DNA of 64,000 nucleotides from an uncultured Spirochaetales bacterium (GCA_944388965.1 CALXKL010000002.1:1-64000), one strand, 5' to 3'; positions 15,070 through 60,465 are shown, counted from the first letter of the stretch. Numbers and translations are program-made. The notes: generated by a model not told the origin, from the sequence alone.

Positions 15070-15102
15070 CCATCACCAACCTTCATTGCCATAAAGTCTA
15101 GA

Positions 15103-16578: not shown

Positions 16579-16589
16579 AAACCCCTCTC

Positions 16590-19068: not shown

Positions 19069-19085
19069 TTGACACTCCTTTCGAA

Positions 19086-19112
19086 GGTTGGAGGCGAAAA
19101 CCGCCTCCAACC
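19086..19112 (-). promoter_or_regulatory. Intercistronic hairpin in the sugar operon
   Basis: A perfect 11-bp stem (GGTTGGAGGCG with CGCCTCCAACC, 5-nt loop) lies between the binding-protein stop and the ATPase start, with no T-tract after it. Such hairpins commonly protect the upstream mRNA and lower expression of transporter genes relative to the binding protein. Confidence 0.75.
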
Positions 19113-19124
19113 GGATGAATAGGA

Positions 19125-20063
19125 TCAATAACCTTCCCAGGTGGAAGCGTTCTCGCTTGTGATGTATTCGATGCCGAGGGCGAAATCGAGTGTCGTCTCC
19201 TCTCCATTGAAATACCTTATCATTTGGTCAGCGGCCTCATATCCCATCAGGTAAGGCTGCTGGGCGGCGATACCTGTGATATGTCCTTCAAGGACCATGG
19301 CCACGCCGTTGGCCGATCCGTCGACAGTGTAGATGCCGATGTCGGTCCTTCCGGCCGCCTCCAGTGCAGCATAGACGCCGAATGCTCCATCTTCGTTGCA
19401 GACGAATACAGCATCCACATCATCATACACCTGCAGCAGGTCCTCCATGATATTCATTGCCGTCTGCTGGTCGGCATTGTAGTTCTGCTGTTCGAGAATC
19501 GTGATTCCCGGATATTCGGAGACCGTGTCGACAAAGCCGTTGGCCCTGAGCAGCGAGGAGTTGTTCTCCGGAGTATCAAGGATGATGATATTGCCTTCTC
19601 CACCAAGGTCCTCGATTACGTGGTTTGCATTTTCGACACCGGCAAGATAGTTGTCCGTAGCGACCTGGCTTACCACAAGATCCGTGTCCTCCACAGGATT
19701 GTCGACCACTACGACTGGGATTCCGGCATCGGCGCACTCGAGCAGAGCCGTACGTGTCGCAGAGGAAATCCATGGGAAGAAGATGATTCCGTCCACACCC
19801 ATGGCAACGAAATCCTCCAGATCGGAGACCTGTCCCTCACTTGTACCGTCTCCATATTTCACGTTCATCTCGATTCCACCTTCCTCGTCGAATCTGGCCT
19901 GGGCGCCTTCGACTATGGCGATGCAGTATGGTGCATAGCTGACCTGCTGCATTCCTATGACGATTGTGCCCTCATCCGTCTGTTCCTCCAGTGCACCACT
20001 GGCGAACATCAGCATAGGTGCGACGATGAGCATGATAAACAGCGAAACAAGAATCTTCTTCAT
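19125..20063 (-). CDS. Periplasmic sugar-binding protein (ABC importer)
   Basis: A 312-aa Peripla_BP_4-type binding protein. An N-terminal signal peptide (basic MKKI, hydrophobic core, then FASGALEE) is followed by the two alternating domains typical of ribose/xylose binding proteins (VVVVDNPVEDTD, AVFVCNEDGAFGVYAALEAA, IYTVDGSANG). There is no lipobox Cys, so it may be soluble in the periplasm. Start 20063 follows AAGGAGAG. The ligand is probably a pentose given xylB and the ROK regulator; the sequence does not prove it. Confidence 0.9.
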   Translation of the reverse strand: MKKILVSLFIMLIVAPMLMFASGALEEQTDEGTIVIGMQQVSYAPYCIAIVEGAQARFDEEGGIEMNVKYGDGTSEGQVSDLEDFVAMGVDGIIFFPWISSATRTALLECADAGIPVVVVDNPVEDTDLVVSQVATDNYLAGVENANHVIEDLGGEGNIIILDTPENNSSLLRANGFVDTVSEYPGITILEQQNYNADQQTAMNIMEDLLQVYDDVDAVFVCNEDGAFGVYAALEAAGRTDIGIYTVDGSANGVAMVLEGHITGIAAQQPYLMGYEAADQMIRYFNGEETTLDFALGIEYITSENASTWEGY

Positions 20064-20095
20064 ACTTTCTCTCCTTTTTTCTCCTGTCCTGTTTT

Positions 20096-20899
20096 CTATT
20101 TCTCCAGCATCCAAGGGATGATTCTGGCAATATGCTCGCTCCAGAATTCGAACGTATGTCCACCAGGCCCCTCATCATAGACATACGGAATCCTGTAGTC
20201 GTCCAGAAGTCTTCTGCTCTCCTGGACGCTCGTGTATACGAGTTCATCTTCACTTCCGACCGTCAGGTATACATCCGGAACCGGATTTCCAGATGATAGA
20301 AGGATCATGATGCTCTCCTCTCCATCCAGGGCACTCCCCTTGACCGCGTAGTCCGGGGGGTCGAGGATAAGCTTGTACGGATAAGTCCTCGTACGAAGGA
20401 CAGAGAGGGAACCGGTTCCGACTCCACCCGACAGGCCCGCGACCTTGCTATACAGATGAGAATATCGGAAGGCCGTATTCAGCGATGCATATGCACCCAT
20501 CGAAAGACCTGCGATGAACGTGTTCTCCCTTTCCGGTCGTGTGGGGAACATCCTGTTGATGTATTCTCTGAGCTCTCCAGTCAGGAACGTCTGCTGCCTT
20601 GGTCCATCTTCCATATCCACCCAGAACGAGTTTCCGCCATCTGGGCATACGACCATCAGATCGGTGCCGATTATGTTCCGCTCGACATTCGAATAGTAAG
20701 ACCAGTCGGTATCATCCCCATGTGTACCATGGAGCAGATACAGGACTCGATACCTCGGCCTCTCCTGGAAGAATGCCGGCTTATCGTAAGTATCGATATC
20801 CTGGAGATAATCGTTCTCCGTCGGCGTCGGAATCAACACTGTGACGTGAGTATACCTGCGCAGGCAGTTCGAATAGATTTTCATTCTTATATGAGCCAT
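20096..20899 (-). CDS. Alpha/beta-hydrolase esterase (CE1-like)
   Basis: A 267-aa esterase of the EstA/tributyrin-esterase, CE1-like family. The nucleophile elbow is GLSMGAYAS, an acidic residue lies in VGSEDEL, and the catalytic His is in GPGGHTFEFW. LLHGTHGDDTDW is the oxyanion-loop region. No signal peptide is visible, so it acts in the cytoplasm. As first gene of the xylB-ABC-ROK operon it probably removes acetyl or feruloyl groups from imported xylo-oligosaccharides (inference). I chose the ATG at 20899 because GGAGGG lies 6 nt upstream. Confidence 0.82.
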   Translation of the reverse strand: MAHIRMKIYSNCLRRYTHVTVLIPTPTENDYLQDIDTYDKPAFFQERPRYRVLYLLHGTHGDDTDWSYYSNVERNIIGTDLMVVCPDGGNSFWVDMEDGPRQQTFLTGELREYINRMFPTRPERENTFIAGLSMGAYASLNTAFRYSHLYSKVAGLSGGVGTGSLSVLRTRTYPYKLILDPPDYAVKGSALDGEESIMILLSSGNPVPDVYLTVGSEDELVYTSVQESRRLLDDYRIPYVYDEGPGGHTFEFWSEHIARIIPWMLEK

Positions 20900-20926
20900 G
20901 ATCCCTCCTGCATCAATCCGTTTTAT

Positions 20927-20981
20927 TAATTCATTCATTGAATACATTTGAATTATAGGCACAACTTCCGTTATCACGCAA
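20927..20981 (-). promoter_or_regulatory. Promoter and candidate operator of the sugar operon
   Basis: On the minus strand: -35 TTGCGT (20976-20981), an 18-bp spacer, and a perfect -10 TATAAT (20952-20957). Overlapping and downstream are TTAATTC/GAATTAT inverted half-sites (about 20927-20956), the right place for the ROK repressor to block transcription. Confidence 0.6.
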
Positions 20982-44767: not shown

Positions 44768-46021
44768 TTAAAATCTGTATCCGAGCTTGATTCCGAATGC
44801 CAGTTTATTCAAGCTCGAAGATATCTCAGCAGATATCCCGTTCCAATCAACACCAAATGAAAGCGTGGAGAAACCGAGCCGGGTCTTGATACTCAGCTCA
44901 TCATTGATGTCATAAGCAAAGCCTACCTTCGGGATTGCAAAGAAATCATACTTGTATGAAGGGATTTCATTCGACCATATGACCTGATTGATTACATTGC
45001 TGAATTCAACGACAACATGATACGGACCATAATCCCAGAGTGCTCGAAGAATGAGATCCATTGGCTGGTAATACGTATCAGGATCCTCATCGAATCCGTC
45101 GTAGTCGACGAAATCGGTCAATGACAGATCATAGAACTTGCGGAAAGAAGCGACATTGGTCAAATCAAGCGTGAATGCAAGAGTATCATTATGCCTGTAC
45201 ATTGTTCCAAAATTAAGTGCAAATCCAAGCCCGAACTTGAAATTCTCACTGAAGGCAAGAACCGGGTTGTCTTCGAATCTTGAAAGCAGAAGATTGTTGT
45301 TCAGAATAGAATTCTGCATTAACGCCTGCAACTCCATGCTTACACCAAGCGTCAGGCGTTGAGAAAGCACATGAAAGGCGTAACCTATATCGCCTCTGAC
45401 ATCGACATTCAGCAGATTGGACCCGGTGGACAACAGGTTTTCACTTTCCGTAAAGCCGATGTTTGACGATAACTGCCATCCAAATCCGTTGCCATAGATG
45501 GCGCCTCCATACAATTTAAGACCAAGCCTCGCAGCACTGTACAAAGCAGGAGAATCAGGACGATTGAACAAGTCGGTATTCTGGGCTGCACTCAAGACAG
45601 CCGAAGCCTTCTGTGCTGAGTCGAATCTATTTGCAAACGAATCCTCGATATAGGCCCTGATTGCCCCGATGTCATCCGAAGCAGGCAGGTTTTCAGGATT
45701 ATCAAAGTTGAATATGGTAGATAGATATGAACCATATTCTGCCCAGAAACGTTCATCACCATTCATCATTGTCGAATAAAGATAATCGATCTGGTCATCC
45801 AAGGCACCGGAAGGCCCGGTAAGAAAGGCAAGATAATCCACTGCACTGAACGCATCAATCTCAAACCCGAAATGCGTTACCTCATGCTCTTCTATCAATC
45901 TGGCAGGCGATGTGAATATGTCAGTGTTGTCATAATACGGATCCGCATATGGCATAAGAGATGCAAAGGACGAACAGATTCCGAAAATGGTCAACACGAA
46001 AATTGCCAAGACTTTCTTCAT
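44768..46021 (-). CDS. Outer-membrane beta-barrel protein
   Basis: A 417-aa protein with a signal peptide (MKKVLAIFVLTIFGICSSFA) and amphipathic strands throughout, ending KLGYRF with the C-terminal Phe typical of BamA substrates. Shape and length recall FadL/PorV-like barrels, but no signature settles it. The ATG at 46021 has AAGGAGG upstream; a longer frame to 46054 adds only an unsupported head. It is last in the six-gene surface operon and more AT-rich than the genome core. Confidence 0.7.
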   Translation of the reverse strand: MKKVLAIFVLTIFGICSSFASLMPYADPYYDNTDIFTSPARLIEEHEVTHFGFEIDAFSAVDYLAFLTGPSGALDDQIDYLYSTMMNGDERFWAEYGSYLSTIFNFDNPENLPASDDIGAIRAYIEDSFANRFDSAQKASAVLSAAQNTDLFNRPDSPALYSAARLGLKLYGGAIYGNGFGWQLSSNIGFTESENLLSTGSNLLNVDVRGDIGYAFHVLSQRLTLGVSMELQALMQNSILNNNLLLSRFEDNPVLAFSENFKFGLGFALNFGTMYRHNDTLAFTLDLTNVASFRKFYDLSLTDFVDYDGFDEDPDTYYQPMDLILRALWDYGPYHVVVEFSNVINQVIWSNEIPSYKYDFFAIPKVGFAYDINDELSIKTRLGFSTLSFGVDWNGISAEISSSLNKLAFGIKLGYRF

Positions 46022-46040
46022 TACAGCCACCTCCTTCACA

Positions 46041-47801
46041 TCAATTCGATTCAACTGGTGTTAAATACCAGCAATATTCGTTGTCTACAGAATCACCATC
46101 AAACTGCAAGTATTGCGGCTCTGCATTTTTATATAGTCCTAACTTGGCAAGTCCAGTACCAACATTTTTGAACTTTATATAAGGTTGCATATAATATTTT
46201 CCTGATTCGTCTTTTAATATACGCTCCAAAAATGCAAACGTCGTCGAGGTCTCAACAGTCTGTCCCATTGCGGTAGATTCCGTAACCGTTGTAACGATAT
46301 CTTTCTCAGCTGGTGTCGTATCAGGATTTACAATATGCCAACTGGAAACACTCACATTTCCCATCGAATTCCATTTCTTTGAATTGATCAGATATGCCTG
46401 CTCTTGTAATGGACCTGGATTAGTCAGGCTTTCTGGATTAGGCAGTCCCTCGGATGCGTCGATCAATGGCATGATTCGCAAGTCTGTTCTACCACCAGAC
46501 GCATCGTCTTCCGGACTAAGGAATACGTAATATGGAAATGAACTTCCATCTGGAGCCGAATCCACATCAACAACAAAATTTGTCGATGTAGTCGCCCCAA
46601 TCATCGGTTTCAATTCTCCTGTCCAAGAATAACTTGTTCCAGCGAAACCCTTTGTTATTATTTCAACTTCACATGAAAAAACGAAACTATCCTCTGTGCG
46701 GGTAAGTATGATTTCAAGTAAGCCGTAATCAGTATCGCTATCAAGCTGGGAAATATACAAAATATCTGTATAATTTAGAAAACCAATCTTGGCTTTTGGT
46801 GCGCCTGAAACAGAAATCTTGTATTTTGAAAAGTCCACATCATCAGCGAAATCAAAATATATGAATGCACTTCGATAATTCTTTTCGATTGTTTTAACAA
46901 TCAATGGAATCGTACACTTGATTATGTTACTTCGCTGAGTATTCGAGGTAACATAAAACTCGCCTGTTTCAAGGCTTTTCAACTCATCAAATGAAATAAT
47001 TGCTTTACCATCTTTGTTCTGGATGGAAGTCAGCAATGGGTCTGAGTCACCAATCTTATATAAAGAGACACTTTCATTTAATGGGATACCAGATGCTTCG
47101 AATCCAGATGAAGACATTTCGAGATGAATTGTTGAAGCAGTCTGCGAGTCATATGAAGGAATTGATAATTCCTTATGCTTACTATACTCATCATCTCCTT
47201 TAAGTGTCTGGAAAACATATGCAACATATTCCTTCTCTGCTTCTAACCCATCAACTAGAATGACAGAACTATTTTCACTGATAACATATTTAGAAAAATC
47301 ATCTCCATTAGCTGATGCAACAGTGACATGATATACGACAGAGTCTGTTGGCAATGAAGAATTGATTCGTATTTCTACACTGGTTTCATATCTTGCAGAC
47401 ACATACGCATCAGGGATGGATTCACTAAGTGACAATGCGTAATCAACAGACCCAATCGACACCCAATTGGCTGTTTCATTTGCTGTGATATCAGCGCTTG
47501 CATATATTTCGATTGTACCTTGAGGAAGCAAACCTGAAGTTATTTCAAAACTATACATATCGTTGGCATACTGGAAACCAGTTTCTACAAGCTGACCACC
47601 TGTCACCTGATACGCATATTTTTTCGCATATGCAACTGGAGTGAATCCAATTTTAATTGTCTGCCCAGTGGAACTTAACACTCTGACAGATGATTCGACG
47701 TTATCCTTGATTTCTACTTTAGGCAGATTGCCGATGATCTCGGCAGAGCATGAAGCAAAGAGTATCAGAAGGGATGACAACAGGATCACAATACGTTTCA
47801 T
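46041..47801 (-). CDS. AT-rich surface lipoprotein
   Basis: A 586-aa predicted lipoprotein (leader ending LILFASC, lipidated C18) followed by repeated beta-sandwich-like stretches (SVRVLSSTGQTIKIGF, SVEIRINSSLP, YTDILYISQLDSDTDYGLLEI). Probably several FnIII-like domains, none of them canonical. The sequence is clearly lower in GC than the genes on either side of the locus. It lies 19 nt upstream of the barrel gene. Function unknown. Confidence 0.6.
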   Translation of the reverse strand: MKRIVILLSSLLILFASCSAEIIGNLPKVEIKDNVESSVRVLSSTGQTIKIGFTPVAYAKKYAYQVTGGQLVETGFQYANDMYSFEITSGLLPQGTIEIYASADITANETANWVSIGSVDYALSLSESIPDAYVSARYETSVEIRINSSLPTDSVVYHVTVASANGDDFSKYVISENSSVILVDGLEAEKEYVAYVFQTLKGDDEYSKHKELSIPSYDSQTASTIHLEMSSSGFEASGIPLNESVSLYKIGDSDPLLTSIQNKDGKAIISFDELKSLETGEFYVTSNTQRSNIIKCTIPLIVKTIEKNYRSAFIYFDFADDVDFSKYKISVSGAPKAKIGFLNYTDILYISQLDSDTDYGLLEIILTRTEDSFVFSCEVEIITKGFAGTSYSWTGELKPMIGATTSTNFVVDVDSAPDGSSFPYYVFLSPEDDASGGRTDLRIMPLIDASEGLPNPESLTNPGPLQEQAYLINSKKWNSMGNVSVSSWHIVNPDTTPAEKDIVTTVTESTAMGQTVETSTTFAFLERILKDESGKYYMQPYIKFKNVGTGLAKLGLYKNAEPQYLQFDGDSVDNEYCWYLTPVESN

Positions 47802-47904
47802 AGACTATCCTCGATTTAAACATAATAGGCACAATCAGCCTGATATGTTCGATTACCTAGAAGATAACATACAAAACTAAATCGAAATGTTCAACAACTA
47901 TTGT

Positions 47905-48654
47905 TTAGAATAGCTTGATATACAGTCCGAATCCATCGTAGTCCTCATATCGAGGATATACGCCCATCTGATAGTATAAACCCAGCTCTATCCTGAAGAG
48001 CAGAAGATTCGCCTTTACTGAAATGGTAGGTCTAATCATCAGACCGTTATGTGAAAGGTAGAATACGCTCGGCTCATCCGAACGCTCGATATACTGCAGG
48101 TAATAGCCGAAATCGACTGCCAGCTTCACTTCCTGCCAGTCCTGGCTCGTGATCACATACTCGAACGAAAGACCGTTCTCCCAGCTGAACTCGAGCGTGG
48201 CGAACCGTCCGGTCTCGGAGCCCAGAGGAGAAAGGAAATAGTCGAATCTGGTGTACAGGCTGTACAATGTGACACCGTTCCTGTATCCGAAGGCCAGCGT
48301 ACCGCCAGGGACGAAGTCCGTTCCCCTTAGCAGCGTCACATGTGCCATGCCATCGAAGAATATACCCCGCTGACGGAACGGCTCCTCAAGCTCGAAGTCT
48401 TTGATGAGGGATAGCCTGACCTCCTCGACAATCTCGTCCTTGAAATCTTCCGACAGATACATCTCGACATCATTGGAGACCTCGATTGTCTGGACGGTCT
48501 GGTCGACGGACCGTCTTATGGCATCAAGCCGCTCTGAATTCAAGGTGCTGCTGGTTTCAGAAGGTACGTCAGACTGCGTCGGCTCATCCACCGCCCACAG
48601 CATGGACATGGATGATACAAGAGCAAGGAGCAAGACGATGGCGATCTTCTTCAT
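47905..48654 (-). CDS. Small outer-membrane beta-barrel-like protein
   Basis: A 249-aa protein with a signal peptide (MKKIAIVLLLALVSSMSMLW, then AVDE), a short helical stretch (about 40-85, possible coiled coil) and then about eight beta-strands ending GFGLYIKLF. The terminal Phe and strand pattern suggest a small outer-membrane barrel, perhaps with a periplasmic N-terminal helix. The start overlaps the preceding lipoprotein stop by 4 nt. Not recognised. Confidence 0.6.
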   Translation of the reverse strand: MKKIAIVLLLALVSSMSMLWAVDEPTQSDVPSETSSTLNSERLDAIRRSVDQTVQTIEVSNDVEMYLSEDFKDEIVEEVRLSLIKDFELEEPFRQRGIFFDGMAHVTLLRGTDFVPGGTLAFGYRNGVTLYSLYTRFDYFLSPLGSETGRFATLEFSWENGLSFEYVITSQDWQEVKLAVDFGYYLQYIERSDEPSVFYLSHNGLMIRPTISVKANLLLFRIELGLYYQMGVYPRYEDYDGFGLYIKLF

Positions 48655-49094
48655 ACTTCAGCCGTCCCCAACCATACAAGAGTATAAATGCCCCTGCCGG
48701 CAACACTCAACTGCAGACTCTCGATACCGTTGTCGGCGGATGCACTCCACACGAATGTCGCATTCACCCTCACGGCAGGATCGCTGTCATCGGTGAATAC
48801 CATGGTGCCGCTCGCCTCAAGCACGTCATACGTCGAATACGTAATATGGCAGACACCTTTTTCCGGAAGGATGTCTTCATACGAATCGTACCCTTCGAAC
48901 GTATAGGCACCCGTCGCATCCAGATTGAACTCCATATAAAGCTCGCTCATCGAGTTCTCCACATACATTCCGTACTTGGCCTCCATGAGCGTGTTCGGAA
49001 TCTGGGATGTGAACTTGTACTGCGGTATGTACTCGCAGGATGAGAGCAGGAACGCCACCATGAGAACGACGACAGTTCGGATCAGGTTCTTCAC
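48651..49094 (-). CDS. Small lipoprotein of the surface operon
   Basis: A 147-aa predicted lipoprotein (leader ending AFLLSSC, C20) with a single beta-rich domain. It overlaps both neighbours by 4 nt (ATGA-type junctions), so its translation is coupled to the large FnIII lipoprotein upstream. Not recognised. Confidence 0.62.
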   Translation of the reverse strand: MKNLIRTVVVLMVAFLLSSCEYIPQYKFTSQIPNTLMEAKYGMYVENSMSELYMEFNLDATGAYTFEGYDSYEDILPEKGVCHITYSTYDVLEASGTMVFTDDSDPAVRVNATFVWSASADNGIESLQLSVAGRGIYTLVWLGTAEV

Positions 49095-51343
49095 AATCTC
49101 ACCTCATAACCGGCACTCTCGCCGCCTTCATGCGTCTGCGTTATCGAATAGCGTCCTGTGAACGCATTGTTCGAGACGGACAGACCTCCGAAATCTATCA
49201 CTCCAGGATACATCCCGCCGATTCTGAAAGGACCACCGCTTACAGTGCCGCTTCCGGAAAGCGACACGACCATGCTATATCCTGCAGATTCGGAGAGATA
49301 GAAGTCCAGATCGAAATGCGTAGGAGCCTCGGAGTAGTACCTGGTATAGCTGAACGACACGTTTCCACCGATACCCTGGGCCACTGCATTGTATGTAATG
49401 GTTCCAGAACTTCCCGCCGGCGCCCCGCAGTTGCCCACAAGGCTCTCGCCTCCGACCGTCGCAGAACCCAGACTTCCCATTCCCTGCTGACTGATATATC
49501 CCCAGATCGAGCTCTTGCCGCCGGAGACATAGTCGGGATGAAGATCAGGTGACTCCCACGGCTTGAGAAGATGGGCCTCGAACGCATCTATATAGGCTTC
49601 GCCGGTGATGGCACCATAGCCATCGACAGAATCTGATTGGCCGCTTTCTCTTCCAAGGGCATCTCTTGCGACAGCCGTATAGGTATAGACCTGCCCCACC
49701 CTGGTGCCGTCATTGTCGTAATACGTGGAATCTGAGGTGATGAATTTCACTGGATCATCACCCTGGGTAGCTATCCCGTCTTCGACACCGGTCCTGGTGA
49801 TCACGTAATCCGCAGGCTTGTAGCTATCATCTGGAACACTCAGAGCCAGCTCCACAGGGAAGACCCCGTTGCCGTTTGCCGTCATGAGACTGCGCTTGTT
49901 GCTGCTTGCCGTGATCGTGGGAGTGTCTGGAATACCGTCGATGGTTGTGACGATGGAGCTCCTGCTCTTGAGCTCTCCGCTTCTGCTGGCGGCGGAAGCA
50001 CCAGGATTGACCGTCCTCACCTCGAAGCGCCTGATCTCGTCCTTATAAGCATCGTCAGATGCAGACTCGGCACTGACGGGGAAATCATAATCGACAAGTT
50101 CCGATTGCGAAAGGATTTCGGTTTCGACCCTATCATCTTCTCTGGTTATCGTCACCTCATACTCCCACTGCGTCTCGGCCTCGTCGGCTCCGACAGGAAG
50201 TGTCACGCCGATGTCGAACCCTCTTCCATCCTCCTTCGGCGTGAATGTAAGCTCCTGCGGAGGCGAGAGAAGATATGCCGTCTGGACATTCGCCTGCGAC
50301 ATCCCGGTATTGTTCTGGGCGACGATGGAATACGTATAGACGACGTTCTCCCTTATGTCTCCCGGATCCTGGATGTAATATGTCTGGGATGCCTCGTCGA
50401 ATGGAAGCTCCTCCCCGGGATATGTCGGGAATATGACCGTCTCGCTGCTTCCAGGATAGCTCCTGGTCACGGTGTATGTGATCGGATCCTCCTCCGTCTC
50501 CAGTGGATCCTTCGCCCACCTGACGACGATTCCGTCTATGCTGTCGCCTTTCGTGACATCGTCGACCTCAGGAGTCGCAGCTGCGCCGATGACCCTTGTG
50601 TATCCGCTTGTGACAGGACTCCTGTCGTTCGATACACTGCCGTTGCCGCCACTTGCAGCTACGGAGAAGTACAGGTTCTTTCCAAGATCGGCCTGTGGAA
50701 CGACATAGCTGTAGCTGTTGGAATAGCCGTTGGGCTCTCCGGAATCGATCTGGGGGACTGTAGCCACAAGATCTCCAATGGCGACCGTGTCCGAATTGTC
50801 CGACGAGTAGACGTAATACTTCTCGACTCCAGGCATCTGTGTCCATGTCAGAGTGATCCTGGCGGTATCGACGCCCTTCGTCGCTTCGATGACGTCCGGA
50901 GCGGACAGTAGAGAGCCATAGCACATCGTGGACGTCTCCCCTGACTGCATTCCCACATACGTATGTGCAGTGACCCTGTATGCATAATAGTAGCCAGGCC
51001 TCAGGTCGGCATCGTCGTCTTCGTAGCGCAGGGCGCTGGGATAGTCGTATATCGGTGTCCATGCAGCCCTTGCGACATCGGCCTGGGTCGGCGTGACGCT
51101 GAATTCGGCTCTCTCAAGCGAATAGTAGTCGGCACCTGCAACGGCAGACCAGGAGACGACTATCCTGTCCTCGTAATAGGACTTGGTCGCCATCGGTCTC
51201 GACGGAGCCTGTCCTGAGAAGACCACCTCCTTTGGAGGATTGTAATCATTGCCAAGCTCAGGTGCCGAGCCGACCATCAGATCCAGATTGCACGAGACAA
51301 GCAGACAGGTCATGAAAAAGATGAAAGGAAGAAGCTTTCTCAT
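49091..51343 (-). CDS. Large FnIII-repeat lipoprotein
   Basis: A 750-aa predicted lipoprotein (leader ending CLLVSC, C18). About five FnIII-like domains follow, marked by recurring strands such as VSWSAVAGADYYSLERA, LTWTQMPGVEKYYVYSS and VYTYSIVAQNNTG. The last 170 residues are Gly/Ser-rich and of a different character (SGSGTVSGGPFRIGG). FnIII repeats in such proteins usually display or bind at the cell surface. It overlaps both flanking genes by 4 nt. Confidence 0.75.
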   Translation of the reverse strand: MRKLLPFIFFMTCLLVSCNLDLMVGSAPELGNDYNPPKEVVFSGQAPSRPMATKSYYEDRIVVSWSAVAGADYYSLERAEFSVTPTQADVARAAWTPIYDYPSALRYEDDDADLRPGYYYAYRVTAHTYVGMQSGETSTMCYGSLLSAPDVIEATKGVDTARITLTWTQMPGVEKYYVYSSDNSDTVAIGDLVATVPQIDSGEPNGYSNSYSYVVPQADLGKNLYFSVAASGGNGSVSNDRSPVTSGYTRVIGAAATPEVDDVTKGDSIDGIVVRWAKDPLETEEDPITYTVTRSYPGSSETVIFPTYPGEELPFDEASQTYYIQDPGDIRENVVYTYSIVAQNNTGMSQANVQTAYLLSPPQELTFTPKEDGRGFDIGVTLPVGADEAETQWEYEVTITREDDRVETEILSQSELVDYDFPVSAESASDDAYKDEIRRFEVRTVNPGASAASRSGELKSRSSIVTTIDGIPDTPTITASSNKRSLMTANGNGVFPVELALSVPDDSYKPADYVITRTGVEDGIATQGDDPVKFITSDSTYYDNDGTRVGQVYTYTAVARDALGRESGQSDSVDGYGAITGEAYIDAFEAHLLKPWESPDLHPDYVSGGKSSIWGYISQQGMGSLGSATVGGESLVGNCGAPAGSSGTITYNAVAQGIGGNVSFSYTRYYSEAPTHFDLDFYLSESAGYSMVVSLSGSGTVSGGPFRIGGMYPGVIDFGGLSVSNNAFTGRYSITQTHEGGESAGYEVRL

Positions 51344-54300
51344 ACAGGAGCTACTCCTACAGTCTGCGCTGCAATGCTGGCTGAAGTTCCATCCGGACGT
51401 GTCAGATCATATGACCCGCTGCCATTTCCCGGGGTAACCGTATTGTAGACAAGAGAAACTCGACCATAGCCTAAAGGAAGGACAGCATTAATCACATTGC
51501 CGTTTTTCGACGTGACACTCGAAATAGTATTGTTCACTACTGCACTGCTACCAGAAATGTTCAGGTCGATTCTTCCAGAGACCATTATTCCTGCAACCGA
51601 GAAATACTCCATTTCAACGAAAGCATTACGTCTATCGGAAAGGCCTGCATAGGAGATGATGATATCTGCAGATATTGATGACACCTTATCTTCCCCATCA
51701 ATATCCACTACACCAAAATCTCTTGAATATGGATCCTGTCCTGTCAGTGTCTGCCACCAATCTTCATCATAATGCTCGTTCGGGTAACTGATTGCATTGG
51801 AAACGACTGTATTCACCAAGTTGATTATTTCAATGTCTCTAAGGGCAACAGGCATAAGGGAATCATTGGTTATAGGATGAGAAACCTTGTCCGTCTCATA
51901 CTCGATTCTGTCGTTCCTGCATGAAACGGACAAATCGATATATACGGAGCCAAGAATCGTCGGTCTTACCATATACACATTGATGAATCCATCTTCCTTG
52001 TAGGCCTTGCCATCAACAATGTCGGATTCGTCGATTGAGCCTTCTTCGATGCTATCGGCATCCACTACAAGCGAACCGGATCTGAGTGAAGACGAAATCA
52101 CATAATCCGTCGCAAACGGATTCTCTCTGAACGACACCCGATAGTAGTATTCGTCATTTGTGGAAAGCTCCTCGACGCTGAACTGCTCGGGATGGTAGAG
52201 CGGGAAGCCGACATTGTCCATGAGACCGAAATCGGAAGTGTCGGTATCTTTGAAATGGTTCTGCAACGGCCCCTCTATTCCACCGATCATTGACGAGACC
52301 GTGTATTCGTAATAGTCGTTAGTCGCTCTGCTCCCACTATTCCTGTCTGCTATCTGATATGAGTTGGACCTTGTGTATGCGACGAACTGCCAATCGGAAT
52401 CAGGGTCATCATAGACTCTTCGATATACATTGTAGCCAGAAACGCCATCGACAGCAGACCAGCCGATGGTCGTGATCTCCGAACTCTCCGCCTTGCTCGC
52501 CACGATATCCATTGGAGGCTTCACCCAATATCCTTCGACAAGGTCCGTGCCGCTATCGGAGACCTCGCTGTTGAACTGAGGGAAGATGCTGAACCAGTAG
52601 CTCTGTGACAGGGCATATCCGCCTATGGCGGAGACATCCTCTGCAGAGAATGCATATGACATGTCGGCACTTGCAACCACACGCTGCTCCGCTATCGGTG
52701 GCTGGGATGCATCGGAACTGGAATACACCCTGATGACGTACTGGCTTGCACCGGGAACGGCATTCCACTTCACGAGTATCGAATCGCCGTATTCGCCTTT
52801 CGACACATTGACGACTATCGTGGCGGGACCGAGCATGTTCCCTTCAGCGATATTCTCTGGAAGCGGATCCCTGCCGGAGACATCTCCAGCCCCATCGACC
52901 GGCCTGACGACGAACTGGTATGTGCGGCCTGCAGAGCTGGTCCCGGCGTCACGCGTGAAGGAATACGAATACAGTCCCGTTGCACTGTCGTAGAAGATTG
53001 GACCACCATCCTCCGCACCCGCTTCGGTGAACTTCTCATCACCACGCAGCCTGAAATACACCTTGTACAGATCGGCGGTACTGGCTCCTTCCACACCTGT
53101 CCACGTGACAATTATTCTGTCGGAGTATTCGCCCTTTGTCGCACTGATTCCGGAGACGGGGTCCATGCTCTTTGCAGAGAGATATCTGTATTGGGTGCTG
53201 TCTCCCTGGCTGGCTGCAAGAGCATAATAGTATGTCCTGCCATCCTCGACATCCGTGTCATCATAGGAGTTGTTCTCGAAGCCACTGCCGTCAATCAATG
53301 TGCTACCGGAATAGTCCGAGGATTCAGAGCGGTACAGGCCTATGGAGACACCTTCGGCTTTCTCGAGTGTCCAGCTCAGTTCGACATGGCCGGCGAGATT
53401 CTCCGAAGCCACGAAACCCGCGATGACGTTTGCAGACGGATCCGTGGAGACGACGTTCTCGGACAGACCGTACTCCGATTCGATTTCTCCTCGGATGACC
53501 TTCACGCGGTAGGAATAGTCGTGGTTGCCGGAAGTCCCGGTCGTAAGCGTCGAAGTCACTGTGACTTTCGAGTTGTCCGTCTCCGATGTACTGAAGGTCG
53601 AATCTTCGACATCCACCCACTCGGGATCATCCGAAGCGAATGTCGTCTCCCTTCTCTCCAGAACGACTTTATCATCCTCTTCGATGCCGAACGGGAAATC
53701 GAACGTCACCGTTTCAGTGAAACTGTTCTCAACCTCCTCATCCGCCTGGATAGAAGCCTGCACATTCACCGGAACGCTGAAGATGTGGGCGGAATTCGAC
53801 TGGGCCGCCTCGTCTTCATCCTGGGCGTTGTAGGCGTTGCTGTCGCTGAAGTAGTAATAGCTGACAACCGAATAGGTGTAGGAGACATTGGCAAGCAGAG
53901 GATGCTCTTCGGATCCTCTGTCGACCAGATGGAAATAGTCTCCATCGAATTCCATCGAAAGCTCCCGGCTTTGCACCTCGACTCCCTCTTCACTTCCGTC
54001 CTGGGTGCGCACTATGGAGAATCTGCGCTGTACGCTGTCGTCAAGACCGTGCTTGACAGGCGGGGCCGTGAACGAGACCAGGATGCCGTCCTTGCCGGAC
54101 ATCTGCGCATTGACGCTCTCGAGGGCATCGGGATATGCATCGGCATCCGTAGTGAACGGCTCGGGGGATGTCCATTCGGCGATCATCTCCCTGTCGGATA
54201 TCTCCTTGTCGCCGTCATCGTCGAATCCCATCCGGACAGTAAGTGTGTATGAGGAGCTGGGGGCGAGTTCGCCGGGAAAGTCATAGGATGGGGTGCTCAG

Positions 54301-54870
54301 GAAAAACGATTCCCTCTCCTCCGTCTCGACGTTTGTGAGCGTCACATGGAACTTCGGATCGGCCAGCATCCTTCCGTCATACACGACAGAGGGATATCTG
54401 ATGATGATTCTCAACCTGTTTCCGGAAAGGACGGTCGAGACGTCATCGATGTTGTTGATGGTGGATATGAACACGGGCTCGCTCTCCGCAGACAGGCTGT
54501 TCCTGCCGGAAGAGACCATGGAGGCGACTCTTATCAGGTATATCTCGTCGGCCCTCACGGTGAACGTCGTCTGGGGAAGGACGGACGGAATCGTGGAGCG
54601 CTCGCCGGTGAACACCTCCTCATCCGTCTGGTAGTAGACGATATAACCTGTAACGGAATCCACACTGTCCCAGCTGACGGACAGCGTGACCTCGTCTGCA
54701 CCCTGCTGTCTTGCGGCGACTGCGACCTTGACGTTCTGTGGAGTCGACGGGCTCTTGACGACTTCGGCTTCGGCCTGCTCTCTCGGCTCGATGGCAAGAG
54801 AGCAGGAGATGAAGGAAATCAGCAGGATTGAAATTAACAGACAAATTCCTACAACTTTGCCTAGTTTCAT
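51340..54870 (-). CDS. Very large FnIII-repeat lipoprotein
   Basis: A 1176-aa predicted lipoprotein (leader ending ISFISC, C23), first gene of the leftward operon. Six or more FnIII-like domains are visible from repeated core strands (LSVSWDSVDSVTGYIVYYQ, LSWTLEKAEGVSIGLYRSE, IVTWTGVEGASTADLYKVYF, VKWNAVPGASQYVIRVY, IGWSAVDGVSGYNVYRRVY). The C-terminal 200 residues are distinct, more AT-rich, and contain IEIINLVNTVV and later VLPLGYGRVSLVYN, echoed in other proteins of the locus. It is probably surface-exposed; the ligand is unknown. Confidence 0.75.
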   Translation of the reverse strand: MKLGKVVGICLLISILLISFISCSLAIEPREQAEAEVVKSPSTPQNVKVAVAARQQGADEVTLSVSWDSVDSVTGYIVYYQTDEEVFTGERSTIPSVLPQTTFTVRADEIYLIRVASMVSSGRNSLSAESEPVFISTINNIDDVSTVLSGNRLRIIIRYPSVVYDGRMLADPKFHVTLTNVETEERESFFLSTPSYDFPGELAPSSSYTLTVRMGFDDDGDKEISDREMIAEWTSPEPFTTDADAYPDALESVNAQMSGKDGILVSFTAPPVKHGLDDSVQRRFSIVRTQDGSEEGVEVQSRELSMEFDGDYFHLVDRGSEEHPLLANVSYTYSVVSYYYFSDSNAYNAQDEDEAAQSNSAHIFSVPVNVQASIQADEEVENSFTETVTFDFPFGIEEDDKVVLERRETTFASDDPEWVDVEDSTFSTSETDNSKVTVTSTLTTGTSGNHDYSYRVKVIRGEIESEYGLSENVVSTDPSANVIAGFVASENLAGHVELSWTLEKAEGVSIGLYRSESSDYSGSTLIDGSGFENNSYDDTDVEDGRTYYYALAASQGDSTQYRYLSAKSMDPVSGISATKGEYSDRIIVTWTGVEGASTADLYKVYFRLRGDEKFTEAGAEDGGPIFYDSATGLYSYSFTRDAGTSSAGRTYQFVVRPVDGAGDVSGRDPLPENIAEGNMLGPATIVVNVSKGEYGDSILVKWNAVPGASQYVIRVYSSSDASQPPIAEQRVVASADMSYAFSAEDVSAIGGYALSQSYWFSIFPQFNSEVSDSGTDLVEGYWVKPPMDIVASKAESSEITTIGWSAVDGVSGYNVYRRVYDDPDSDWQFVAYTRSNSYQIADRNSGSRATNDYYEYTVSSMIGGIEGPLQNHFKDTDTSDFGLMDNVGFPLYHPEQFSVEELSTNDEYYYRVSFRENPFATDYVISSSLRSGSLVVDADSIEEGSIDESDIVDGKAYKEDGFINVYMVRPTILGSVYIDLSVSCRNDRIEYETDKVSHPITNDSLMPVALRDIEIINLVNTVVSNAISYPNEHYDEDWWQTLTGQDPYSRDFGVVDIDGEDKVSSISADIIISYAGLSDRRNAFVEMEYFSVAGIMVSGRIDLNISGSSAVVNNTISSVTSKNGNVINAVLPLGYGRVSLVYNTVTPGNGSGSYDLTRPDGTSASIAAQTVGVAPV

Positions 54871-54923
54871 ACAGAAGGCTTTTTAATGGTTTTGTGAAAT
54901 AAAAGCAATAGGAGAACCAGATT

Positions 54924-55035
54924 ATATTACAATTGGACAAGAAAATGTCAAAATAACGAACAGATTGTCTAATTTATTGTCCTGCAAGAATTTTCCTCGA
55001 AAGAGCCTTGAACAGCTATTGAATGTTATTATACT
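54924..55035. promoter_or_regulatory. Divergent promoters of the surface locus
   Basis: Leftward: -35 TTGACA (54946-54951) with -10 TAATAT (54924-54929, 16-bp spacer). Rightward: -35 TTGAAC (55008-55013) with -10 TATACT (55030-55035, 16-bp spacer). The AT-rich 55 bp between the two -35 elements includes two ATTGTC direct repeats that could bind a shared regulator. Confidence 0.6.
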
Positions 55036-55065
55036 TTTCATTAGGATTCTGTTCGGTAAATGTGT

Positions 55066-56925
55066 ATGAGAGCTAGACGAACTCTGGTATACATCCTGAC
55101 AATCCTGTCCCTTGCCCTCTGCTCTTCCTGCGATATCGAATATCGGGACAGTGCAGATGCCAGTGTATCCATCCTTGTCGACGGGAATGTCAGACCCGAC
55201 ACGATGAAGGTGAACCTCGTCACAGGACAATCGGGCGTGGTGTACAGATCCGTCATGGCCGATCCGTCGACGGAATCGGTCGTCTTTCCCGCCCTTCTCT
55301 TCGGAAGCTACACGGTCAACGCCTATGGATATGTCTACGACCACAGCGGAGAGAGGCTCGTCGCCATGGGGACGGCGGAGCTTACAACCGAGGACAAGGG
55401 AGCCAACTCAACATCACTCACGCTCTCCCCTATAACCGACTCATCCTACACAGGTACGGTGAAGGCCGAGATTCTTCTGGAAAAGGACAGGAGCATAAGG
55501 ACGGCTGCCGATACCCTCTCCCTGATCTCCAACGGCCAGGTGCTGGCGACAAGGGACATAGCAGGTACCGGCTCCCAGCCCTACATGTTCGAAGAGGACA
55601 TCCCCTGCATGACCACTGCCAAGGCGCATTTCCAGATCTCCATAGGAGACTACCCTGTCGGCAGCAGCGAGGAGTTCGACCTGGCAGTATATGCCGGACA
55701 GACCACCGACCTGGGCCGCGTGGACATCATCCCGGACGAGGACGTGGTCATCATCGACAGCGTGAAGGTCGAGTATTCGAAGACGTCGTCGGACAGTCTG
55801 GAGTACTCCTTCATCCCGCCGGATTCCACCACTGGATACAGATGCGTCATCGTCAGATACGGCGATGGACAGGCGACCTACTCCTTCGAACTGTCCAAGG
55901 AGGAAATCGATGAGGCGACAGGCGACGGGATGTTCTACACTGGCACCATCTCCGGCCTGAGGGAAGGCACGTTGTACTCTGTCGCCATAGGAATCGAGTT
56001 CGAGGATGGAAGCTTCTCCCCGTTCGTCCAGGGGGAAGGAAGCACGACGGTCCCGCTGAAGAACGTCAGCATCAACAGGATACCCGAGGACATGCAGCCG
56101 AGCGATTCCTGCCAGCTCACGCTGTCCCTCAACCCGTCAGATGCGACGGACCTGGGCGGCACCTGGACGAGTTCGGACGAATCGGTCGCCAGCGTCGACC
56201 AGGACGGCCTTCTCACGATAACCGGATACGGCCAGGTGACGATACGCTACACGGCGGCAAACGGCAACAGGTCTGCCCGGCTCGCGATCAACATCAGTCT
56301 TACAGCCCCCGAGCTCGCACTCGTCCCTGGAGATGATTCGATCCTCCTCTCCTGGACATCTTCCGTACATGCGGACTCCTTCGAGATCTACAGGAAGGAG
56401 AGCGGGCAATCAGGAGACGGGGACCTCATGGCGACAACCGAAGACCATTCATACATGGACAAGGACATCCTCTCAGGACACACATACACCTACAGGATCA
56501 AGGCCACCGACACGGAGCATGGCGTATCTGCATGGAGCGACTGGAGCGCTGATGTCGCATTCAAGCCTGCAGTGATCGAAATCTCTGTCGAGAAGCCCGA
56601 ATCATTGGCGATTGTCATGAGTGGAATGAGCCAGGACCAGATGATCGGACCTGACGACGAGATTCAGGTGTCGGTCAACGAAATCGAAGGTATAGTCGGC
56701 TACGGATGGTTCATCAACGACAAGCTCGTTTCAAACGAGAGGGAGTTCATCCTCGATGGAAGCATGTCGGTATTCGACGTGTCGCAGGAAGCCGGTACAC
56801 AGCTTCTCACACTTTATTTGTACAGCGCAGACGGGAAAATCCATTCCGGCTGTCTGAGGTTCATCTACAAAGATGCACCTGATATTGAAAAGACTTTGTT
56901 TGGATATAGAGGAAACGAATCATGA
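55066..56925 (+). CDS. Big_2/FnIII lipoprotein (paralogue 1)
   Basis: A 619-aa predicted lipoprotein (leader ending LCSSC, C22). The order is: an N-terminal beta domain ending LSPITDSSYTGTV; a FnIII-like domain; a Big_2-type domain (LNPSDATDLGGTWTSSDESV and ASVDQDGLLTITGYG); a FnIII domain (LSWTSSVHADSFEIYRKE); and a PKD-like C-terminus (YGWFINDKLVSNE). The same order recurs in the next gene, so they are paralogues. The start is ATG 55060 or 55066 with no strong ribosome site. It overlaps the next gene by 4 nt. Confidence 0.75.
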   Translation: MRARRTLVYILTILSLALCSSCDIEYRDSADASVSILVDGNVRPDTMKVNLVTGQSGVVYRSVMADPSTESVVFPALLFGSYTVNAYGYVYDHSGERLVAMGTAELTTEDKGANSTSLTLSPITDSSYTGTVKAEILLEKDRSIRTAADTLSLISNGQVLATRDIAGTGSQPYMFEEDIPCMTTAKAHFQISIGDYPVGSSEEFDLAVYAGQTTDLGRVDIIPDEDVVIIDSVKVEYSKTSSDSLEYSFIPPDSTTGYRCVIVRYGDGQATYSFELSKEEIDEATGDGMFYTGTISGLREGTLYSVAIGIEFEDGSFSPFVQGEGSTTVPLKNVSINRIPEDMQPSDSCQLTLSLNPSDATDLGGTWTSSDESVASVDQDGLLTITGYGQVTIRYTAANGNRSARLAINISLTAPELALVPGDDSILLSWTSSVHADSFEIYRKESGQSGDGDLMATTEDHSYMDKDILSGHTYTYRIKATDTEHGVSAWSDWSADVAFKPAVIEISVEKPESLAIVMSGMSQDQMIGPDDEIQVSVNEIEGIVGYGWFINDKLVSNEREFILDGSMSVFDVSQEAGTQLLTLYLYSADGKIHSGCLRFIYKDAPDIEKTLFGYRGNES

Positions 56926-59789
56926 AACAGAGACTGCTGATCATTCTTTCAGTGATTTCAATCGTCTTCACCCTTGCCTCCTGTGAGCAGGCACAGCCTG
57001 AACAGCAGCTGACGCAGAGCGTGAACATCACACTGGCAAATGTTGCAGACCCCAACGCCAGGACCATCAGGCCGGAGGAATACGAATCGCCTGACAAGTA
57101 TGATGTCACACTGACAGAGGTGAGTGCCGCTGCGGAAGGCGACTGGACCGAGGTTCCTGACAGTGGAAAAACGAATACCTGGAATGTAGGGGCGAGCGGC
57201 AATTCGATCACCTTGGACAACGTCGCCGTGGGAAACTACAAGGTCAGCATCATCGGATTGACCGATGCCGATGTCAAGGTGTTGTCAGGATCATCCAATG
57301 ACGTACTCTCCGTCACTCCGGGAAGCGTGAACAGCATCACCATCAAGCTTTCGCCTATCGAAAAGGGAGAAGGCCTCACGGGTACTGTAAGAATCGATAT
57401 CGACTGGACACAGGCAAAGGATTCTGACAGATTCAGTGAGCTGTTTAAAGAGGGGCTGACCGTGAAGATGAAGGACCTCAAGACGGATAAAGAACTCGGG
57501 GCCAAGACCTCTTCATCGGATGATGTAAATGGCATGACGCTTGAAGTAAGCGTAGCCGTCACCCCAAGCCAGCAGGTCTACTTCGAACTCTGGTCCGGTG
57601 ATACGCTCATAACGAAGAATCTCAGAAGAAGCGTCATCTGGGTATCCTCAGGCAATGTCTCCGTCCCGATGGATGGCGAAAGCAAAATCATCATAGACGA
57701 GAACGATCTGGCTTATGGTGTGAACGTCAAGAATGCCAGCTGGAACTACAACACCGAATCATCCCAGTATGTCGACATCACATGGGACAACGTCTTCTTC
57801 GGTGGAAGCTGCCTTTTCGACAAGGTGGTCGTCTATTATGAGCCGGCCGATGGAGGTACTGCCAAAAGCGGATCAGTAGAAGTCATGGACCTTGATGGGG
57901 AAAAGGGGGCTGTGACGTTGAAAGACCTTGAGACCAATGTCGAGTACAAGATCTATATCCAGGCTTATCATACGAACGGTCTCATCTCCTCCAAGGATCC
58001 TCTTGAGGGAACCATCACCACTAAAGTAGTCGTGGACGGCATATCGATTACGCCTTCTTCGCTTGGAAGCGCTATCGAAATCGAAGGAAAGGCGGAGCTG
58101 ACGGCAACCGTCACGCCAGAAAACGCCAGCGACAAGTCTGTCACCTGGATCTACGACAAAGCAGCATTCTCCGCCGACTCCGATACATCCGATTCGGGCG
58201 TCGCAAAGTCTTTCACTGCAAAAAAGGCCGGTGTATTCACCATAGAGGCCAAGACGAATGACGAACTGGCAACTTCAGTCGACCCCGCAAAAATCAAGGT
58301 CAAGGTCAATCCGGCTGCTCCTACAGTCGAGAAGAAGTCTGACAACATCACTGTAAACTGGGAGGCAGTCTCCAATGAGGATGCGACATACACCCTTTAC
58401 AGGATTGCGGATTCCGAAGATGCTCAGGTCATCGTCACCCAGAACATGAATGTCACCCGCTATGAGGACAAGGACATCTTCTCAGGTGTCACCTATTCCT
58501 ACTATGTCGTCGCAACTGTCGGGGAAGACACGCTGACCAGCAAGACCTCGTCTGAAGTCGATATGCCTGAAAGCGTGATCGGTATCACTCTTCCGAATGC
58601 AGGTGCATCCCTTGACATCAACCTCAGGTCCGAAGATGGAATCCTTGCACTTACAGACGAGAACAGCATCACCCTCTCTGCTGTCGACAAGGATGGCTAT
58701 CCTCTTGAAGGTTATACCTACGCCTGGTATGTAGACCTCGTTTCTGAACCAATAAGCGAAAGCAGCACTCTCGTTCTCAACATGAAAGAGCACGGACAGT
58801 ATTTCTATCCGGGTGTCGTTGAGCAGGAGATAATACTGGAACTCACCAAGGGAGGAAAAACATACAGTGGATCTGTCACGGTCCATGTCCTTTCCGGAGA
58901 TGTCCCTGCAGAATCGATTGTCATCTCCCTGCCTGAAGGACAGGCGACAAGGCTTTCCACAGAGGATGCTGACGGAAATCTCAGAAAGATTCCCCTGACC
59001 ACTGTCGTGACTCCGAATTACACGACTGAGGAAATAACCTACGAGATAACTCAGACCTTGACAGAAGATTCCCCTGTCAAGGGTAATATCGTCGATGTAC
59101 AGAACGGAAATCTGGTGTTCTCAGGAGCAACAGGCGAGGTGACGATAAAGGCAAAGACTTCAAGTGGCAAAGAGTCGAATGCCATTGCCTTATCGGTGTA
59201 TAAGGCGACAGTTGATTCAGCCGTGCAGATTGTTAATTTGATCAATACTGAATGGGCAAAGCATTTTTCTGTTGCTGACTCATCAGCTTATTTTGACTCC
59301 GATTGGGCAGTAACAAACGTTGCTTGGAATACAAAGACATATCAAGATGAGAGTGGTAGTTTCTTTTTCCAAAGAGCTCTAACAACCATTAATGATGGCG
59401 ACTCCTATGCAACAATTTCAAATGCAAGAATTAAGATTACGGAAGAAGAAAATAATGATATTATTGTGACTTCCAATGGTAATATCGGCTTCTCTCTGAT
59501 TGATGGAGAAGGAGCTCTTACTATTGGGACAGAAGTAATTAAGATTATTTCTGTCAACAACCAAAAACTAACTGTCAGGCTACCATTCAATCAGGGAACA
59601 GCAACCATCTCATATGAGAGCATCAGAGTCAAGGATGATAGCGGTAACAACACTCGTGGCGGCTACTATTCTGTGGATTTCTCATCCGACATCCTCGGCA
59701 TCGATGGTGTCAATCTTGACCGCACTGGTGACAACAAGATTAATGATGCAACGGAAGCTACAAACATCACCAAGCTCATTTACGGTTGA
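56922..59789 (+). CDS. Big_2/FnIII lipoprotein (paralogue 2)
   Basis: A 955-aa predicted lipoprotein (leader ending FTLASC, C21). The order is: N-terminal domain ending LSPIEKGEGLTGTV; a FnIII-like domain; Big_2 (SITPSSLGSAIEIEGKAELT and onward); FnIII (NITVNWEAVSNEDATYTLYR); a PKD-like YTYAWYVD domain; a second Big-like domain; and an extra C-terminal module (IVNLINTEW to GGYYSVDF). From about 59200 to 59590 the DNA turns sharply AT-rich and then recovers within the same frame, suggesting acquisition or exchange of that segment. It ends before a strong terminator. Confidence 0.77.
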   Translation: MKQRLLIILSVISIVFTLASCEQAQPEQQLTQSVNITLANVADPNARTIRPEEYESPDKYDVTLTEVSAAAEGDWTEVPDSGKTNTWNVGASGNSITLDNVAVGNYKVSIIGLTDADVKVLSGSSNDVLSVTPGSVNSITIKLSPIEKGEGLTGTVRIDIDWTQAKDSDRFSELFKEGLTVKMKDLKTDKELGAKTSSSDDVNGMTLEVSVAVTPSQQVYFELWSGDTLITKNLRRSVIWVSSGNVSVPMDGESKIIIDENDLAYGVNVKNASWNYNTESSQYVDITWDNVFFGGSCLFDKVVVYYEPADGGTAKSGSVEVMDLDGEKGAVTLKDLETNVEYKIYIQAYHTNGLISSKDPLEGTITTKVVVDGISITPSSLGSAIEIEGKAELTATVTPENASDKSVTWIYDKAAFSADSDTSDSGVAKSFTAKKAGVFTIEAKTNDELATSVDPAKIKVKVNPAAPTVEKKSDNITVNWEAVSNEDATYTLYRIADSEDAQVIVTQNMNVTRYEDKDIFSGVTYSYYVVATVGEDTLTSKTSSEVDMPESVIGITLPNAGASLDINLRSEDGILALTDENSITLSAVDKDGYPLEGYTYAWYVDLVSEPISESSTLVLNMKEHGQYFYPGVVEQEIILELTKGGKTYSGSVTVHVLSGDVPAESIVISLPEGQATRLSTEDADGNLRKIPLTTVVTPNYTTEEITYEITQTLTEDSPVKGNIVDVQNGNLVFSGATGEVTIKAKTSSGKESNAIALSVYKATVDSAVQIVNLINTEWAKHFSVADSSAYFDSDWAVTNVAWNTKTYQDESGSFFFQRALTTINDGDSYATISNARIKITEEENNDIIVTSNGNIGFSLIDGEGALTIGTEVIKIISVNNQKLTVRLPFNQGTATISYESIRVKDDSGNNTRGGYYSVDFSSDILGIDGVNLDRTGDNKINDATEATNITKLIYG

Positions 59790-59811
59790 TTGTACTGGTT
59801 TTAACCTTTCC

Positions 59812-59833
59812 AAAGGGAGCTTCGGCTCCCTTT
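59812..59833 (+). terminator. Terminator after the Big/FnIII pair
   Basis: AAAGGGAGC pairs GCTCCCTTT around a TTCG tetraloop. It is a very stable 9-bp hairpin, though followed by only a short T-tract. Confidence 0.8.
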
Positions 59834-59973
59834 GATCATCATTCCACTATCACGAGAATGTTTCTCAAGCATTCTGAATAATACTGCTTACAAAATCACA
59901 CTAGACAGAAGTGTGCAGTCGAAATGTCACAGTGGCATCGGATGTCATTACCAAATCTGTACCAATGCTCTCT

Positions 59974-60465
59974 TCAGCGACTTGTCAGAATTATCTCCTC
60001 CGATGTCGCAGTACCGTCATAGTTCAATACATCCATTGACAATGTGACAGTTCCATCCTTATTCAACTTGAAGTAATACACAGCAAAATGAATTAGTCCT
60101 TCTACATTTTGTCTGACAGATAACGAATACTCTCCATGTACAGGGCTTGTCGCTTCATAAGATACCTCATAGGACAATCCATTTTCTCTGGCATATACTT
60201 CATTCGAACGAATCGTCGAATTCACCAGGTTAATCATGGATACACCCATAACGGAAAAGTCATTCGATGAAATGATGACAGTTCCTGTCTCTCCTGAACT
60301 ATCTTTTCCATCATATACTCCAATGAGCTCTTCTGGAAAACTGGCCTTAACTTCCACGACTCGAATGTTGCTTTGAGGCTCCTTGTTATTGTTTTCACAT
60401 CCCAAGAGCAGCATAAAGATACAAGCTAAAACCAACAAAACCACTGTACACCTTTTCATTTTCAA
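59974..60465 (-). CDS. Small lipoprotein related to the surface locus
   Basis: A 163-aa predicted lipoprotein (leader ending MLLLGC, C23). A single domain contains GVSMINLVNSTIR followed by strands ending GTVTLSMDVLNYDGTA. The INLVN stretch and following pattern echo the C-terminal modules of the 1176-aa and 955-aa proteins, so it may be a free-standing version of that module. AGGAGG lies 7 nt before the ATG. AT-rich. Not otherwise recognised. Confidence 0.65.
   Translation of the reverse strand: MKMKRCTVVLLVLACIFMLLLGCENNNKEPQSNIRVVEVKASFPEELIGVYDGKDSSGETGTVIISSNDFSVMGVSMINLVNSTIRSNEVYARENGLSYEVSYEATSPVHGEYSLSVRQNVEGLIHFAVYYFKLNKDGTVTLSMDVLNYDGTATSEEIILTSR

Follow-up and report, generated by a model that had tools for sequence, protein, structure and literature searches.

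The locus at positions 44,768 to 60,465 of the window (the whole stretch of DNA analysed, 64,000 nucleotides, lying on contig 2 of a genome of 2.1 Mb) is made up of three units, F-E-D-C, B-A and G-H, not one. Taking the evidence together, we judge with moderate confidence that these are separable outer-membrane modules answering to one predicted regulator, and that they form a rapidly diversifying surface lipoprotein/barrel system. The initial annotation had placed all the barrels and lipoproteins in a single surface assembly, which is here narrowed to two modules and an accessory pair. The genes are as follows.

44768..46021, minus strand: A, a barrel of 417 aa with a FadL-like model and an [ST]-P-[AGS] motif (the ATG at 46021 is the probable start; with a TTG start the gene would reach 46054).
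46041..47801, minus strand: B, a 586-aa lipoprotein with an FnIII-type N-terminal half and a conserved C-terminal region, the putative partner of A.
47905..48654, minus strand: C, a small outer-membrane barrel, predicted by AlphaFold and Foldseek to have eight strands and an N-terminal helical extension.
48651..49094, minus strand: D, a small lipoprotein of 147 aa, lying between E and C in a conserved order.
49091..51343, minus strand: E, a 750-aa FnIII-type lipoprotein, its C-terminal domain (about 175 aa) conserved in the alignment.
51340..54870, minus strand: F, an 1176-aa FnIII lipoprotein (fn3 E 3.4e-6), the first gene of the core operon.
55060..56925, plus strand: G, a 621-aa Big_2/FnIII lipoprotein (Big_2 E 2e-10, fn3 E 1e-5), a paralogue of H.
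56922..59789, plus strand: H, a 955-aa FnIII lipoprotein (fn3 E 1.5e-7), overlapping G by 4 nt.
59974..60465, minus strand: I, a lipoprotein with a lipobox.

All nine ORFs are open at these positions, and the layout first described for them was confirmed. Lipoboxes are present in seven (B, D, E, F, G, H and I), while A and C have a signal peptide lacking a lipobox and end in Phe. Four junctions (F/E, E/D, D/C and G/H) are 4-nt overlaps; B and A overlap only with the TTG start of A, the gap from the ATG being 19 bp, and 103 bp separate C from B. Since order, spacing and overlaps are kept across tens of genomes, this layout is more than chance. As read from the sequences, the locus is flanked by recQ- and galactokinase-like genes to its left; to its right come a MATE-type transporter gene and one resembling threonine synthase. 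The back-to-back promoters proposed for the F/G gap fared less well: sigma70-like sites do flank the gap on both sides, but a consensus scan over the region performed no better than chance (21 against 18.4 expected), as did a terminator scan.

The core unit was delimited by tblastn and profile searches in relatives. E was found in 47 of 139 family genomes, spread over 5 of 22 genera and nearly always as a single full-length copy. When the surroundings of E were read in 45 genomes, F directly preceded it in the same orientation in 44, and F-E-D-C was contiguous in 36, representing five genera of one Spirochaetales family; several of the exceptions stop at a contig border. Junctions were mostly between -4 and +20 nt, with start codons and a few of these values approximate because a simple gene caller was used. 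A profile of C matched 21 of 393 genomes of the phylum (4 of 168 genera), every match falling inside the same family. F-E-D-C is thus a conserved operon restricted to one family.

The second unit is narrower. The profile of A matched 47 of the 139 family genomes, in two genera only, and in the full-length loci read across both, A had B just ahead of it. Its position relative to the core operon takes at least three forms: B-A follows C in genus g1, precedes F in genus g16 (G030, G071, G074, G097, G098, G099 and G100), and is convergent behind C in G107. The whole layout from galK to MATE/thrC is the same in G009, G014, G011 and G002 (with G/H as one or two genes, and the right flank of G002 cut) and in G008, there split over contig ends; in G013, G012 and G015 only B-A occupies this site and F-E-D-C lies elsewhere. 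Among the 31 genomes with both E and A, the two units are linked in 13, probably in one more where they are split over contig ends, and unlinked in about 17. Each is also found without the other, and three other genera carry F-E-D-C but not A. Co-occurrence of E and A is significant across the family (p 3e-8), as it also was on a smaller set, but disappears within the two genera that carry A (31/16/9/8; Fisher p = 0.39), so that the correlation mostly reflects phylogeny, and presence alone is no proof of dependence; we dropped it as evidence. The idea of a single six-gene leftward unit is accordingly not supported. The expectation that lipoproteins and barrels are conserved together was borne out within F-E-D-C and B-A, and conserved gene order in relatives likewise holds for each module but not for the placement of one against the other.

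G and H are a duplicated, less constant Big/FnIII pair, and H-type genes lie near the core operon in several genomes. Lipoprotein I, initially counted with the locus, did not hold its place: it is outside the G-H module and looks like a separate gene, with a syntenic copy only in the close relative G014 (67%) and no half-site of the kind described below. A first scan of named genomes with B gave no match; relatives of A in named records come from uncultured Spirochaetales, including Candidatus Aphodenecus pullistercoris and Candidatus Ornithospirochaeta stercorigallinarum, and both genus names appear in a chicken-gut metagenome paper (PMC8035907). Two further copies were noted in passing: a second, diverged A paralogue in G011 with no recognised B ahead of it (L048 15460-16734), and a second F-like gene in G093, downstream of an H-type gene adjoining the core operon (L104 15156-17891).

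The genes of the locus have diverged far more than their surroundings. We measured identities against G014, which is syntenic over most of the window, and obtained 54% for A, 36% for B, 64% for C, 30% for D, 40% for E, 27% for F, 29% for G and 25% for H, both G and H matching one G014 gene. The median for A-H is 33% (range 25-64%), compared with 84% for 30 aligned genes outside the cluster (p 2e-5). The change is abrupt, from 96% at galK to 54% at A, and again ahead of MATE (97%). Such steps would fit replacement by divergent alleles or strong diversifying selection, and divergence this fast suggests proteins that are exposed at the cell surface and subject to selection or allelic exchange. 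Elsewhere in the window, a six-gene block resembling a sugar-uptake system (13882-20977; ROK regulator, FGGY kinase, ABC permease, ABC ATPase, periplasmic binding protein and esterase) has no match on the syntenic G014 contig, where its flanking genes adjoin, and five tRNA genes lie in a row on the minus strand at 2347-2794.

A candidate control site emerged from a six-genome alignment of the F/G gap, in which CGAACA blocks are conserved near both ends. In the fetched loci, CGAAC/GTTCG pairs at a spacing of exactly 16 gave 16 distinct sites against about one expected, with 0-6 at other spacings. The full palindrome, TATCGAACA-N14-TGTTCGATA, is new here, and its half-site is TATCGAACA. Across 139 genomes, TCGAACA-N14-TGTTCG had 43 raw matches in g1 and g16, where the reversed control had 13; in other genera both gave 11. 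A perfect palindrome counts twice in these raw figures, once per strand. In g1 and g16 nearly every site is intergenic and followed by B, F, a small lipoprotein gene or a porin-like gene (about 375 aa), whereas matches in the other genera fall nearly all inside ORFs.

A palindrome or half-site lies within 250 bp upstream of 11 of 23 B genes (p 1e-9) and 20 of 44 F genes (p 1e-14), compared with 16 of 474 other genes. B provides the more independent test, because the motif was first seen upstream of F, G and H and the same regions were counted for F. Sites also precede H in 4 of 13 regions and G in 2 of 7, and none was found before the internal genes A, C and E (0/109); no recognisable site precedes about half of all F and B genes. 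The window itself holds three half-sites, and a scan of its genome returned no full palindrome.

54954..54963, plus strand: half-site TAACGAACAG, in the F/G gap, upstream of the promoter-like site of F.
55049..55058, minus strand: inverted half-site TACCGAACAG, in the F/G gap, just before the start of G.
47846..47855, minus strand: half-site TAATCGAACA, upstream of B.

Exact TWMCGAACRGA words number five in the genome, the first two half-sites above being among them. These statistics, with sites standing before operon heads, suggest that the modules are probably co-regulated. Control from the central region, as initially envisaged, is consistent with the common motif on both sides of the F/G gap, but B-A carries a half-site of its own, about 45 bp upstream of B, and would not be driven from the centre only.

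Two other readings of the motif were considered. An SOS box is rejected because the spacing is 16 and not 4. An RNA hairpin could still hold at some sites, but not before the porin-like genes: there a good -35/-10 pair (TTGACA/TACAAT) follows about 100 bp downstream, so that the palindrome falls outside the transcript. These full palindromes before a gene of about 375 aa occur in L166, L168, L172 and L174 (near position 1501), from genomes in which E was not found. In G013 and G015 (L161 211 and L163 1501) an identical palindrome precedes a gene for a small Pro/Glu-rich lipoprotein, away from both B-A and F-E-D-C, and G012 has the same site sequence. We asked whether lipoprotein I is related to this protein; the likeness is confined to the signal peptide.

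These observations also bear on another account, in which the locus is a surface-antigen island of unrelated lipoproteins and porins, gathered for two reasons, a site that is tolerant of exchange and a single regulator acting on many envelope genes, with no joint machine beyond the coupled translation of F-E-D-C. We consider this possible, though we doubt it. It sits well with modules that are separable and not co-dependent, with a block that diverges as a whole from A to H, and with the recurrence of the same palindrome before the porin-like and small lipoprotein genes. Shared neighbourhood falls short, however, of the strict pairing within F-E-D-C and B-A, which persists down to about 30% identity, and of the several different arrangements in which the two modules are nonetheless linked. 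We retain the reading of separable modules under one predicted regulator.

The two barrels appear to be of different kinds. C models as an eight-stranded barrel of the OmpA/OmpX/NspA type: mean pLDDT in the AlphaFold model is 87, mostly 92-98 over the eight strands and less certain in the helical N-terminal stretch, and the best PDB matches in Foldseek are NspA and the OmpA transmembrane domain. Sequence searches with the C family gave no family-level Pfam match and none in the PDB. The C-terminal peptidoglycan-binding domain of OmpA is absent, the protein stopping at its last strand. One might propose that C, with D, is dedicated to showing E and F outside, as a spirochaete counterpart of the missing Slam: in the great majority of genomes C comes after E and D, and spirochaetes display surface lipoproteins with no known Slam (PMC7857515). 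We find this most improbable: eight strands are too narrow for a polypeptide channel, and OmpA, NspA and OmpX, which C resembles, are non-translocators. Neither the A nor the C family matched the Slam features, a TPR domain and a DUF560 barrel.

A, on the other hand, models as a FadL-like protein. The FadL family fold is a 14-stranded barrel. The AlphaFold model of A (pLDDT 90.7) has about 15 strands and a helical insert at residues 61-148, and its 19 best PDB matches in Foldseek are FadL, TodX and TbuX, followed by chains of type 9 secretion complexes, at TM scores of 0.32-0.42 overall and 0.33-0.42 for the FadL match. Against Pfam at E 0.01, 20 members of the A family gave no FadL match and only weak ones to OMP_b-brl and DUF481. 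An [ST]-P-[AGS] motif is conserved before the first long strand, with Pro39 invariant and Asn absent. The NPA motif of FadL sits in its N-terminal hatch (PMC8407342), and we take the similarity as a resemblance, not proof. A relationship to TraF_2 was tried and found no match. A type IX secretion (PorV-like) reading of A would call for SprA in the genome and a Por_Secre_tail sorting domain on the substrates; no match to that domain turned up in the E or B families.

A FadL-like A would suit an alternative built on nutrient capture, with A as a channel for hydrophobic compounds and B, a surface lipoprotein, as its lid, while the source of the substrate would be bound by the FnIII/Big lipoproteins of both F-E-D-C and G-H. 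The conserved motif near the NPA position and the adjacency of B agree with it, as does the presence in T. pallidum of five FadL-like proteins with a proposed role in the import of hydrophobic nutrients (PMC8407342). Yet the cluster contains no lipid transporter, binding protein or enzyme, F-E-D-C occurs in three other genera that lack A, and the TM scores stay below 0.5, and we regard this alternative as unlikely.

FnIII-type domains recur among the large lipoproteins. Among the window proteins, Pfam fn3 was found in F, G and H and Big_2 in G; E and B had no significant fn3 match, but fn3 is present in 25 of 43 members of the E family and in many B homologues, and the profile of B hit FnIII structures with a best E of 4e-11. 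At E <= 0.01 all fn3 matches of this genome lie inside the locus, although further fn3 genes may exist, since Pfam fn3 misses E and B themselves. The combination expected of FnIII lipoprotein adhesins, a lipobox together with FnIII repeats, was found. For the C-terminal domain of E, the PDB search gave no convincing relative (best E 0.011, a cyanovirin construct over 43 residues), and a C-terminal domain common to E, F and H, suspected by eye, was not supported by profile comparison.

Under the model of separable, co-regulated modules, the F-E-D-C core would join two long FnIII lipoproteins and a small one, in a translation-coupled chain, to the OmpA/NspA-type barrel C. C would serve the lipoproteins as a fixed outer-membrane partner, from which E and F may extend as jointed stalks, while B would capture or gate substrate for the channel A and G and H would serve as accessory Big/FnIII lipoproteins. 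The palindrome built on TATCGAACA, ahead of the operon heads B and F and sometimes of G/H, would be the operator of the one predicted regulator. C would pair physically with D, E and F, and A with B. Given the common control site and divergence far faster than in neighbouring genes, both modules are probably part of a variable contact surface, whose likely role is to attach the cell to gut mucus or to plant and host glycans, or to capture material from them; surface exposure and an adhesion or capture role are presumed. A bolder form of the model, which we think decidedly unlikely, makes F-E-D-C a family-specific machine in which C, with D, displays or anchors F and E outside by a route unlike Slam, and an undescribed regulator binding TATCGAACA-N14-TGTTCGATA sets the make-up of the outer membrane.

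A literature search over open-licence papers found none describing the cluster. The locus defines a set of probable surface genes for uncultured gut spirochaetes, with a conserved and testable operon order, and the candidate operator makes an envelope regulon directly testable. Its rapid divergence could be used in strain typing and in studies of host or phage pressure. Furthermore, how lipoproteins reach the spirochaete surface is still an unanswered question (PMC7857515), for which lipoproteins tied to a single barrel make a reasonable starting point.

Several known systems share features with the locus. A recalls FadL, TodX and TbuX, including the FadL-like proteins of T. pallidum, in the Pro-containing motif of its N-terminal segment, ahead of the first long strand; unlike them, it has no Pfam match to the family, low TM scores, a long helical insert and a putative lipoprotein partner, B. 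C shares with the OmpA transmembrane domain, NspA, OmpX and OmpW an eight-stranded barrel of about 160 aa, a kind represented in T. pallidum by TP0126, TP0733, TP0479 and TP0698 (PMC8407342), but differs in its N-terminal helical extension, its fixed place behind three lipoproteins and its lack of a Pfam or PDB sequence match. As in bacterial surface adhesins of the FnIII/Big type, repeated FnIII and Big_2 domains stand behind a membrane anchor; here, however, the proteins are lipid-anchored and co-encoded with a barrel, and the conserved C-terminal domain of E has yielded no convincing relative. Finally, the pairing of a lipoprotein gene with an outer-membrane barrel gene recalls SusD/SusC, BtuG/BtuB, TbpB/TbpA and Slam with its substrates. 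The barrels of this locus are neither TonB-dependent nor Slam-like (Pfam SusD, plug and TonB-receptor matches were absent from the window proteins and from the A and B families), and its lipoproteins are FnIII/Big chains in place of SusD or TbpB.
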